Shown: one piece after another, positions 43,399 through 49,635 of the stretch
Layout: each line of letters begins with the position of its first letter
How positions within the stretch are numbered: position 1 is the stretch's first letter
Assembly: GCA_017404515.1 (NCBI GenBank)
Contig: JAFRCG010000023.1
Coordinates: forward strand, 1 to 54,765
From: Candidatus Saccharimonadota bacterium
Lineage (GTDB): Bacteria; Patescibacteriota; Saccharimonadia; Saccharimonadales; Saccharimonadaceae
Length of the DNA: 54,765 nt
Direction: 5' to 3'
Program-made: the position numbers and the translations under genes
The notes under the pieces: generated by a model
Databases searched by the model: none
What the model saw: only the letters and a program-made list of their open reading frames with translations
Told to the model about the DNA's origin: nothing

Positions 43399-43443
43399 AG
43401 GTGCTCCTTTTGTAATACTTATGGTAATTATAGCACAGTTATT

Positions 43444-43554
43444 GGCTCCACCTTTACAAATCTTTTCTGACTGGTTGGCTCAAATCAAATGGGAATAATT
43501 ATTCCCATTTGATTCGCCAACAAACAGTCAGAAAAGTTTTTGTAAAGTTGGAGC
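43444..43554. repeat. Inverted-repeat hairpin element HP2 (loopless)
   Basis: Same arms as HP1 and HP3 but meeting directly at AATAATTATT, without the 43-nt loop. It begins 10 nt upstream of the ldh -10 box and ends 21 nt before cassette C6. Confidence 0.85.
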
Positions 43555-43574
43555 TTCTCCCCTTCTCCTTTTCC

Positions 43575-43770
43575 CGTCGGTATCCGCTTTCGTATGTGTA
43601 TTCTGGTAGTTTTGAATGGACAGACGGAACATTATATGTGCAGGGGCTTGGTTCATATTGGTGGTCTAGCACGAGTAGTAGTAGCATTGCGGCATATTTT
43701 CTTATACATGGGAGCAATGACTTGAATCCAGCAATCGCCAGAAACAAAGCTCTTGGCTTTACTCTCCGCC
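43575..43770 (+). repeat. Surface-protein cassette C6
   Basis: Begins RRYPLSYVYSGSFEW and ends LGFTLRRR; the core has YWWSSTSSSS and LNPA. It follows HP2 and meets C7 tail to tail at 43762-43779. Confidence 0.78.
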
Positions 43771-43975
43771 GGCGGAGAGTAAACCCGACGGCCTTATTAT
43801 TGCTATCCTGGGGGCGGAGATTGCTACTATACACGTACAAGCTGTACGCGTAACTATCACTGTCGGCTGCGGTAGACCACCAGACCCCGAGGGAGTCCTG
43901 GTAGTCCAGGTTACCATTGCCCCAGTAGTAGCGGCCTGAGAACACATACGAAAGCGGATACCGACGGGCAGAAGT
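43771..43975 (-). repeat. Surface-protein cassette C7
   Basis: Begins RRYPLSYVFSGRYYWGNGNLDY and ends GFTLRRR; the core has WWSTAADSDSYAY and LRPQDS. Upstream of its 5' end an extra AGCGGAGAG tail (about 43977-43986) abuts the antisense-RNA promoter of TA-like unit 1. Confidence 0.8.
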
Positions 43976-43989
43976 GGAGCGGAGAGGAT

Positions 43990-44018
43990 TTGACTAGTTC
44001 TGTAAGCTTTAGTATAAT
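43990..44018 (+). promoter_or_regulatory. Promoter of antisense RNA 1
   Basis: TTGACT (43990-43995), 17 nt, TATAAT (44013-44018). Hexamers and spacing are identical in unit 2. Confidence 0.85.
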
Positions 44019-44022
44019 AATA

Positions 44023-44107
44023 GCAAGTCAGTGTTGTATTTCTAGAAAATAAAACACTAACTTGCTGGGTTTGGGAGACCTTGCTAGCGGTGAGGTCTCT
44101 TATTTTG
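44023..44107 (+). ncRNA. Antisense-type small RNA of TA-like unit 1
   Basis: This is a transcript of about 85 nt. Hairpin 1 pairs AGCAAG/CTTGCT (44022-44027 with 44061-44066) and AGTGT/ACACT inside; the loop contains TTTCTAGAAA. Hairpin 2 is a terminator, GAGACCT/AGGTCTC (44075-44081 with 44093-44099) followed by TTATTTT. In unit 2 both strands of hairpin 1 have changed together. The 3' end overlaps the end of the 24-codon ORF on the other strand and is complementary to its mRNA. Confidence 0.75.
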
Positions 44108-44158
44108 TGACTTTCTTATAATCTTCTTTAGCCGAATAACGAAGCTAAGTTCAATCAT
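44084..44158 (-). CDS. 24-residue basic peptide of TA-like unit 1
   Basis: The ORF starts ATG at 44158 with AGGAAAGGA 7 nt upstream and ends TAG at 44084, inside the terminator hairpin of the opposing RNA. The peptide begins MIELSFVIRL and ends in a basic tail with NKRPHR. The copy at 49346 has the same length, the same MIE[LI]S start and the same KRP end with a different middle, so the frame appears maintained. By layout it is a candidate type I toxin. No homologue is known to me, and toxicity is inference. Confidence 0.65.
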   Translation of the reverse strand: MIELSFVIRLKKIIRKSQNKRPHR

Positions 44159-44339
44159 AGATTATTCCTTTCCTAAGAGATACCTAATCATGCATCTAGA
44201 ATGGATCTTTTCAGTGGCATCCCTCCACACTCCCACCATGTTGTAGAACATAATGCTTTGCAGATGCCAACGAATTGCCGTTTTTAAACAATATTTCCTA
44301 AACATATTCTACTTAAGCACACTTTTTCATCCTATCCAA
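44159..44339 (-). promoter_or_regulatory. Promoter and structured 5' leader of peptide 1
   Basis: TTGGAT (44334-44339), 17 nt, TTAAGT (44311-44316) with an upstream TG, conserved base for base in unit 2. The leader is about 147 nt with a TGGCATC/GATGCCA helix (44263-44269 with 44215-44221) enclosing a conserved purine-rich segment (GTGGGAGTGTGGAGG-like). Long structured leaders are usual for type I toxin mRNAs. Confidence 0.65.
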
Positions 44340-44372
44340 GCACGAGCTTGATAGAAAATTTATTTAAGCGCA

Positions 44373-44605
44373 AGCGGAGAGCAAACCCGTAGGGCTTACT
44401 ATAGTTATTCTGGGGGAGGAGACTGCTACTATACATGAGCAGGTGGTACGCGTTACTATCACTGAGGGCTGCGGTAGACCACCAGAGCCCGTAGGAGTCC
44501 TGGTAGTACAGGCGACCATTGCCCCAGTAGTAGTTGCCTGAGAACACATACGAAAGCGGATACCGACGGGCACCGGTGGAATAGTAGGAGGGTGCCGATA
44601 AAACA
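44373..44605 (-). repeat. Surface-protein cassette C8
   Basis: Begins YYSTGARRYPLSYVFSGNYYWG and ends YGFALRLR; the core has WWSTAALSDSNAY and LLPQN. Upstream it shares CTGTTTTATCGGC and CTATTCCACCGGTGCC with C14. Its 3' tail abuts TA-like unit 1. Confidence 0.8.
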
Positions 44606-47958: not shown

Positions 47959-47989
47959 TATCTTTGGGATTGCTGATAGTGTGAGCTTT

Positions 47990-48157
47990 GGCTCCACCTT
48001 TACAAATCTTTTCTGACTGGTTGGCTCAAGTCAAATGGGAATAATTATTCTAGGCAGCTCTGCGCCAGAATTGACAGTTCCGTACTCGAGCTGTAGAATA
48101 ATTATTCCCATTTGTTTCGCCAACAAACAGTCAGAAAAGTCTTTGTAAAGTTGGAGC
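47990..48157. repeat. Inverted-repeat hairpin element HP3
   Basis: Nearly identical to HP1, including the 43-nt loop. It is placed between the proS promoter and cassette C9. Confidence 0.87.
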
Positions 48158-48177
48158 TTCTCCCCTTCTCCTTTTCC

Positions 48178-48375: not shown

Positions 48376-48577
48376 AGCGGAGAGGAAAACCGAAGGCCCT
48401 ACCATAGTTGTTATCCTGGGGGTTGAGACCGCTACTATACATGACCAAGTAGTACGCGCCACTATTACCGTTGGCTGCGGTAGACCGCCAGTACCCGCCG
48501 GAGTCCTGGCCGTCCAGGTTACCAAAGTCCCAGCGGTAGAGACCTGAGTATACATACGAAAGCGGATACCGACGGGC
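48376..48577 (-). repeat. Surface-protein cassette C10
   Basis: Begins RRYPLSYVYSGLYRWDFGNLDG and ends GFPLRCAS; the core has YWRSTAANGNSGAYYL and LNPQDN. Confidence 0.8.
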
Positions 48578-48589
48578 AGATGTGGAGTA

Positions 48590-48795
48590 GGAGACGCAGC
48601 GGAGAGCGAACCCGTAGGCTTTAATAGTGTTATTCTGGGGGTCGAGACCGCTACTACCCATGCGCAAGTAGTACGCGTTACTATCACTGCTAGCCGTGGT
48701 AGGCCACCAGCCCCCGTAGGAGCCCTGGTAGAACAGGCTACCATTGCCCCAGTAGTAGTAGCCTGAGAACACATACGAAAGCGGATACCGACGGG
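48590..48795 (-). repeat. Surface-protein cassette C11
   Basis: Begins RRYPLSYVFSGYYYWGNGSLFY and ends GFALRCVS; the core has GWWPTTASSDSNAYYL and LDPQNN. A 12-15 nt spacer joins it to C10. Confidence 0.82.
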
Positions 48796-48809
48796 CATAG
48801 TATGGAGCG

Positions 48810-49015
48810 GGAGACACAGTGGAGAGCAAACCCGAGGGCTTTATTAACATTATGCTGGGGGAGGAGAGAGTTACTATCCATGTACAAGAGGTACGCGTTA
48901 CTATCACTGCTGGCTGCGGTAGACCACCAGACCCCGTAGGAGTCCTGGAGGTACAGGTCACCATCGCCCCAGCTGTAGCGACCTGAATATACATACGAAA
49001 GCGGATACCGACGGG
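48810..49015 (-). repeat. Surface-protein cassette C12
   Basis: Begins RRYPLSYVYSGRYSWGDGDLYL and ends GFALHCVS (His for Arg); the core has WWSTAASSDSNAYLL and LLPQHN. Confidence 0.82.
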
Positions 49016-49026
49016 CAGTATTGGAG

Positions 49027-49225
49027 CGGAGAGAGAAGCCATATAGTTTGTTGTTATGACCATCGCCCTGAAGGTAAGTAGTTGCCAAAATCATATAATA
49101 TGCATTACTGCTATCGTATGCTGTAGCGGTCCACCAATGTCCTAATGAATCTTGATTATACAAATAACCACTCGCCCAATAATAGACTCCAACTTGATTT
49201 ACATACGAAAGCGGATACCGACGGG
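49027..49225 (-). repeat. Surface-protein cassette C13
   Basis: Begins RRYPLSYVNQVGVYYWASGYLY and ends YGFSLRS; the core has HWWTATAYDSSNAYYM and a different third segment (YLQGDGHNN). Lower GC than the adjacent cassettes. Its 5' end lies about 25 nt from the antisense promoter of TA-like unit 2. Confidence 0.78.
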
Positions 49226-49250: not shown

Positions 49251-49279
49251 TTGACTGGGGGCATAAGCTTTAGTATAAT
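49251..49279 (+). promoter_or_regulatory. Promoter of antisense RNA 2
   Basis: TTGACT (49251-49256), 17 nt, TATAAT (49274-49279). Confidence 0.85.
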
Positions 49280-49283
49280 AATG

Positions 49284-49370
49284 AGCAAGCAAGAGATGTA
49301 TTTCTAGAAAATATATTCTCACCTGCTCGGTTGTGGGAGACCTTGCTAGTAGCGAGGTCTCTTAGTTTTT
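49284..49370 (+). ncRNA. Antisense-type small RNA of TA-like unit 2
   Basis: Second copy. Hairpin 1 has GAGCA/TGCTC (49283-49287 with 49324-49328) around an AGAGA/TCTC helix and the same TTTCTAGAAA loop. The terminator is GAGACCT/AGGTCTC (49337-49343 with 49355-49361) followed by TTAGTTTTT. Stem sequences differ from copy 1 on both sides while the pairing is kept. Confidence 0.75.
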
Positions 49371-49420
49371 AGAGTCTTTCTGACTTTGACAAATCCCCAA
49401 AAGAGACTAATTTCTATCAT
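49346..49420 (-). CDS. 24-residue basic peptide of TA-like unit 2
   Basis: ATG at 49420 with GAAAGGAG 9 nt upstream; TAG at 49346 inside the opposing terminator. The peptide begins MIEISLFWGFVKV and ends KTKRPRY. It shares length, start and end with the peptide of unit 1. Candidate type I toxin. Confidence 0.65.
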   Translation of the reverse strand: MIEISLFWGFVKVRKTLKTKRPRY

Positions 49421-49590
49421 TAAGCTTGCTCCTTTCTAAGGATACCTAGCATATCTAGAATAGCCATTCATTGGCACCTCCACACTCCCACCACAATTTT
49501 TAGTAGTGTTTGCCGTGCCAATTAGACGCTAATTTAGCGCAGCACTCCCCAACCAAAGCCTACTTAAGCACACTTTTCTTTCCTATCCAA
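49421..49590 (-). promoter_or_regulatory. Promoter and structured 5' leader of peptide 2
   Basis: TTGGAT (49585-49590), 17 nt, TTAAGT (49562-49567). The leader carries an 8-bp ATTGGCAC/GTGCCAAT helix (49515-49522 with 49470-49477) at the place of the 7-bp helix of unit 1, with compensated bases, and the same purine-rich segment. Confidence 0.65.
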
Positions 49591-49635
49591 GCACTAGCCC
49601 GATAGAAAATAATGCTATTGGTAAAATAATTAATG

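Follow-up and report, generated by a model that had tools for sequence, protein, structure and literature searches.

A candidate type-I-like toxin-antitoxin family in Saccharimonadaceae whose peptide mRNA carries complementary loops at its two ends

The window, i.e. the whole 54,765-nucleotide stretch of contig JAFRCG010000023.1 from a Candidatus Saccharimonadota bacterium (family Saccharimonadaceae), contains two copies of a compact unit in which a short peptide gene on the minus strand is opposed by a small RNA on the plus strand. A sequence-only reading had described for 43990-44357 opposed promoters, a leader, a Shine-Dalgarno sequence, a 24-codon ORF and a T-tailed antisense RNA. All of these parts are present, and its second copy at 49251-49609 consists of the same set. 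The features are:

43990-44018, plus strand: copy 1, small-RNA promoter TTGACT-17-TATAAT (11/12 consensus positions; -10 region kept across copies)
44020-44108, plus strand: copy 1, putative antitoxin, an antisense small RNA of about 85 nt with two hairpins (ends estimated)
44021-44067, minus strand: copy 1, 3' hairpin and probable mRNA terminator, complement of small-RNA hairpin 1
44041-44046: copy 1, UCUAGA in the small-RNA loop (plus strand); on the mRNA strand, the 3'-hairpin loop pairing with the leader motif
44072-44102, plus strand: copy 1, intrinsic terminator of the small RNA, T-tailed, overlapping the 3' end of the ORF
44084-44158, minus strand: copy 1, 24-codon ORF for a putative toxin, MIELSFVIRLKKIIRKSQNKRPHR
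44159-44308, minus strand: copy 1, structured mRNA leader, about 150 nt
44166-44170, minus strand: copy 1, Shine-Dalgarno sequence AAGGA
44195-44200, minus strand: copy 1, leader motif UCUAGA, 5' half of the predicted 5'-3' loop-loop pairing
44311-44339, minus strand: copy 1, mRNA promoter TTGGAT-17-TTAAGT, weak by consensus, conserved with copy 2
49251-49279, plus strand: copy 2, small-RNA promoter
49282-49370, plus strand: copy 2, antisense small RNA (terminator 49334-49364)
49346-49420, minus strand: copy 2, 24-codon ORF, MIEISLFWGFVKVRKTLKTKRPRY
49421-49561, minus strand: copy 2, mRNA leader (leader-model match, E 3.1e-7)
49454-49459, minus strand: copy 2, leader motif UCUAGA (partner loop 49303-49308)
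49562-49590, minus strand: copy 2, mRNA promoter

Two details of the initial description needed correction. The location of the minus-strand promoter is supported by relatives, which have clear TATAAT boxes at this place, but the window copies themselves are weak and were not listed by a promoter scan. Moreover, the internal leader helix that had been pointed out is not the best-supported one; this is a stem enclosing CUAG about 40 nt upstream of the ATG.

The source genome (763 kb, 29 contigs) harbours four copies of the unit. The third complete one (L003:1323-1705) precedes a parA-like gene of the same orientation and has the 24-codon frame MREIRILWGLISIRTTAKYKKFRR, and the fourth (C13:34351-34436) is cut by a contig end. 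Covariance models strongly widened the family beyond the two copies initially known. A small-RNA model built from three copies retrieved 11 new ones in 10 genomes of the same genus, all 11 with an opposite-strand ATG ORF of 22-31 codons behind a Shine-Dalgarno sequence. A second small-RNA model yielded 97 copies in 61 of the genus's 174 genomes. It also found 7 in a sister genus, and a single weak match from another family was left out of the count. With the leader model we obtained about 130 copies in 74 of these 174 genomes and additional matches in the sister genera g101 and g111, and in a phylum-wide sample (380 genomes, 313 genera) matches came from the same family only. Structure models alone found these relatives: a DNA similarity search of 150 relatives gave no true copy, and exact-pattern scans of genome and viral collections returned nothing related, two genome matches being taken as chance. 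Weak matches in other families (L009, L064, L153) and weak small-RNA matches (L137, L140, L145) likewise look like chance. In one locus (L129:1501-1845) the small RNA occurs twice in tandem at a distance of about 230 nt, and one of the two copies has a clear peptide frame.

The small RNA of copy 1 folds into two hairpins with -36.4 kcal/mol (z -6.3; none of 200 shuffles as good). For copies 1 to 3 the z-scores are -6.3, -5.2 and -6.4, and in no case was a shuffle as good. In an alignment of 14 copies, which was fitted to the model and therefore leans toward it, compensatory changes occur at 26 of 30 pairs, exceeding every shuffle or slid register. A G-U pair becomes A-C, a mismatch, when read on the opposite strand, so counts of G-U wobbles discriminate between the strands on which a hairpin is used. 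In 121 copies, the small-RNA terminator hairpin has 64 G-U pairs in the small-RNA sense versus 8 in the mRNA sense, whereas the distal hairpin at the mRNA 3' end shows, family-wide, 223 in the mRNA sense versus 49 in the small-RNA sense. From this mirror-image bias it follows that each hairpin is selected mainly on the strand that it would terminate, and the bias thus provides indirect evidence for both transcripts. The mRNA-strand stretch following the 3' hairpin is also T-rich (0.54 versus a background of 0.29). As far as can be judged from sequence, the antisense RNA has the hallmarks of a type I antitoxin: complementarity to the mRNA together with a conserved promoter, structure and terminator.

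Nearly all leaders form a covarying stem whose loop, some 30-65 nt before the ATG, contains the hexamer NCUAGN. This stem shows compensatory changes at all six of its pairs, and it is 89% paired compared with 63% after shuffling. The loop of the small RNA carries the same hexamer and, as the small RNA complements the mRNA 3' end, the leader hexamer is complementary to the mRNA's own 3' loop. Scored on the flanking letters, with G-U allowed in the mRNA sense and the loops chosen from folds, leader motif and 3' loop are compatible in 60 of 62 copies, against a mean of 30.3 and a maximum of 41 in 20,000 permutations. The cognate duplex in 137 copies has a mean energy of -9.30 versus -7.98 for shuffled partners (sd 0.135), a distance of about ten standard deviations; because the copies are related, the permutation figures overstate independence and are not probabilities. 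Furthermore, changes within the core are matched on the two sides, giving UCCAGA in L083, L206, L211 and L218, GCUAAG in L115 and L232, GUUAGG in L213, and UCCAUG in L231 and L240. A single mismatch occurs in L228, and L239, which also has a truncated peptide, is a near-miss in the core. The minimum-energy fold of copy 1 alone lacks the long-range contact, a kind of contact that a nested fold cannot represent. Taken together, the comparison of copies shows a leader loop complementary to the mRNA's own 3'-hairpin loop and kept so by repeated compensatory changes, a feature beyond the sequence-only reading. Two other ideas on the leader were discarded. If the small-RNA loop paired directly with the leader, 45 of 62 copies would fit, versus the 60 of 62 for leader and 3' loop. 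Reading the leader block GGTGGGAGTGTGGAG as a G-quadruplex, by analogy to pilin variation, fails because the wider family does not conserve it.

For the peptide, we examined the opposite strand of loci found from RNA-only models, with shuffled upstream sequence as control. An ATG ORF of 18-32 codons that follows a Shine-Dalgarno sequence and ends in the terminator is present in 70 of 94 loci (about 75%), compared with a mean of 2.35 (2.5%) and a maximum of 7 in the control. Over codons 2-16, a range upstream of most of the small-RNA overlap, pN/pS within alignable groups is 0.32, indicating purifying selection on the peptide frame, and the Shine-Dalgarno sequence is conserved across the family. 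The frame thus resembles a type I toxin gene in having fewer than 60 codons (19-31) with an ATG and a ribosome-binding site, and in being, by its substitution pattern, selected as protein. The 129 distinct peptides comprise 19-31 residues, and all are net positive (median net charge +6), the N-terminal half being hydrophobic and the tail polar and basic. The hydrophobic moment has its maximum at 160-170 degrees, as in a beta strand (1.37 at 160 degrees versus 0.78 shuffled), whereas at 100 degrees it is below the shuffled value. A transmembrane helix is absent among them, the longest run without K, R, D, E, H, N or Q having a median of 6 and a maximum of 10 residues, and no export signal was seen. 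With their beta-pattern moment and nonpolar runs of at most 10 residues, the peptides are therefore unlike the transmembrane helices of known membrane-acting type I toxins (PMC8309996).

Peptide and RNA are lost unequally. About 15 small-RNA loci keep the RNA without an intact peptide, either because leader or start is lost or because the frame is shifted; in L072 and L106 only a C-terminal remnant of the frame is left, and L090 retains leader and Shine-Dalgarno sequence in front of a frameshifted ORF. Conversely, of the 58 loci that bear a leader and have enough sequence, 56 are recognized by the small-RNA model, and in L208 and L211 both hairpins are visible by eye, so that none of the 58 lacks the small RNA. 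The absence of toxin-only loci is in part forced, since the small RNA overlaps the mRNA 3' end. The sequence-only reading had held that broken frames beside a retained RNA would refute a peptide toxin; such loci do occur, yet no leader in the loci examined stands without the RNA, and a one-way decay of this kind fits toxin-antitoxin biology.

There is hardly any doubt that the module is a real family of two RNAs under selection. We consider it likely, on comparative grounds, that it represents a new family of type-I-like toxin-antitoxin modules with the peptide as putative toxin. The mRNA from one strand would carry a structured leader (about 150 nt) and a strong ribosome-binding site, encode a cationic peptide of 19-31 residues and end in a 3' hairpin. 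The other strand would yield a small RNA (about 85 nt) that complements the end of the ORF and the entire mRNA 3' end. The contact between leader loop and 3' loop may hold the full-length mRNA in a closed, poorly translated state. The small RNA could dock on the same 3' loop via the hexamer that it has in common with the leader, then zip into a duplex over the ORF end and block expression or trigger decay; the peptide would be toxic when the small RNA is missing. A more specific proposal, to which we give about even chances, is that leader and antitoxin RNA, with their identical loop hexamer, compete for the mRNA 3' loop, that the toxin is a cationic, beta-strand-like peptide with a new target, and that this is, in the literature searched, the first type I system from the candidate phyla radiation. 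The target would be new because such a peptide is not a membrane helix. In the competition scenario, the message would lock itself with a built-in copy of its antitoxin's recognition loop.

The peptide might instead be controlled by antisense RNA without being a self-toxin, e.g. as a secreted or surface cationic peptide directed against the host or competitors, or as a regulator whose dose is kept low. We regard this as rather unlikely. The evidence for translation and antisense control applies to it equally, the peptides are cationic and amphipathic in a beta pattern, and many copies lie near variable surface-protein genes; however, an export signal is not visible, and two features are more usual in toxin-antitoxin modules, namely the one-way loss of the peptide with the RNA kept and the presence of several divergent paralogues in a genome. 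Much less credible is a cassette-associated RNA belonging to an apparatus for surface-protein diversification. All four copies in the source genome do adjoin variable-repeat cassettes, and 22 of 80 complete loci have a surface-protein-type neighbour, but most copies elsewhere sit between unrelated genes, the element contains nothing resembling a template repeat, and its peptide is selected as a peptide. We attach equally little weight to a non-coding regulatory RNA pair with an incidental ORF: the roughly 15 loci with RNA and no intact frame would suit it, but the pN/pS value and the conserved Shine-Dalgarno sequence argue against it, as does an ORF frequency 30-fold above the shuffled expectation. 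Finally, a leader peptide or attenuator controlling a downstream gene, suggested by a short ORF that lies in a structured leader, by overlapping hairpins and by the parA-like gene behind copy 3, is strongly disfavoured and in effect ruled out, since no neighbour is conserved and the downstream gene is co-directional in 38 and not in 35 of 73 cases, and it would leave the conserved promoter and terminator on the opposite strand unexplained.

For the favoured type-I-like toxin-antitoxin reading, known systems offer several points of comparison. In Fst/RNAII, TxpA/RatA and BsrG/SR4, opposed transcripts overlap at the 3' end of a small-peptide mRNA, as they would here; those toxins, however, are helical membrane peptides, and no sequence match to them was found. 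The hok/sok system has a long structured mRNA with interacting 5' and 3' ends under antisense RNA control and is similar in both respects, but Hok is longer (about 50 residues) and has a transmembrane helix, and Sok overlaps the leader, whereas the small RNA considered here overlaps the ORF end. Orz is encoded as a separate, non-overlapping gene, unlike the present cis-antisense RNA. Common antitoxin-only loci are shared with zor/orz, where they occur as orz loci in more than 30% of E. coli genomes (PMC11264685). The nearest known logic is that of AapA/IsoA from Helicobacter, which combines a short peptide with a basic C-terminus, an antisense RNA and a closed mRNA (PMC6733600, PMC8309996); there, the mRNA is held untranslated by a 5'-3' interaction until its 3' end is trimmed, and repression is exerted in cis by an antisense RNA of about 80 nt (PMC6733600). 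The likeness extends to the peptide size of about 30 residues, the several copies per genome, the length of the antisense RNA (about 85 nt here) and the long-distance interaction in the mRNA, deduced here from sequence and not from probing. In AapA, however, the 3' end sequesters the Shine-Dalgarno sequence, whereas the contact supported here is between leader loop and 3' loop, and AapA1 has the transmembrane helix that our peptides lack. The module resembles AapA/IsoA in how it would work, not as a demonstrated relative, and the peptide class differs. More generally, lacking a hydrophobic, alpha-helical transmembrane segment, the peptides fall outside the class of membrane-acting type I toxins (Fst, TxpA, BsrG, Hok, AapA). 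What endures of the initial proposal of a new type I family is the repeated peptide/antisense unit, the type I layout and the lack of a match to RNA or peptide in Rfam, Pfam and NCBIfam, but not a kinship with Fst, TxpA and BsrG.

According to a review from 2021, known membrane-associated type I toxins are confined to Proteobacteria and Firmicutes (PMC8309996). In full-text literature, most subscription journals being outside the scope, we found no paper on type I systems in Saccharibacteria, Patescibacteria or the candidate phyla radiation. If the peptide is toxic, RNA-controlled toxin-antitoxin systems reach bacteria with very small genomes, and a toxin type without membrane helix is added to those known. 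The family would then also provide well over 100 naturally occurring versions of a long-range loop-loop switch, many of which amount to ready-made compensatory mutants.

The surroundings of the copies merit a separate description. Cassettes of about 200 nt (RRYPLSYVYSG...WWSTA...GFALRC), tandem as well as scattered, occupy 43767-43985, 44374-44580 and 48377-49032 of the window and about 40 more places in the genome. Compared with a candidate template repeat (G000:C29:14061-14249, plus strand), they have mismatches at 39% of A but at only 3-8% of C, G and T, and in this pattern they act like the variable repeats of a diversity-generating retroelement. Dozens of such repeats, many of them apparently lacking the remainder of a gene, seem to share a single template. 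Three reverse-transcriptase genes are present (G000:C13:3916-4626, G000:C29:14484-15203 and G000:C26:38876-39403); the one on C29 adjoins the candidate template repeat, and the one on C26, in an open frame of 491 aa, may be of another type. Across the family, surface-protein neighbours with the pattern CPKGWRLP...WWSST...GF.VRC occur at L058, L059, L068, L082, L087, L088, L101, L111, L116, L126, L128, L130, L138 and others, perhaps above the expectation for unlinked genes, this being a count without control. Within the window, 43442-43560 and 47988-48170 are near-identical (96-98%) and contain long inverted-repeat arms (GGCTCCACCTTTACAAATCTTTTCTGACTG...), with a diverged plus-strand cassette behind each region. 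An imperfect palindrome, CTATCAAGCTCGTGCTTGGATAG, marks the upstream end of the element (window 44334-44359) and recurs in part at other intergenic places (L004, L005, L006); in L004 and L005 it is contained in a common repeat of about 120 nt.
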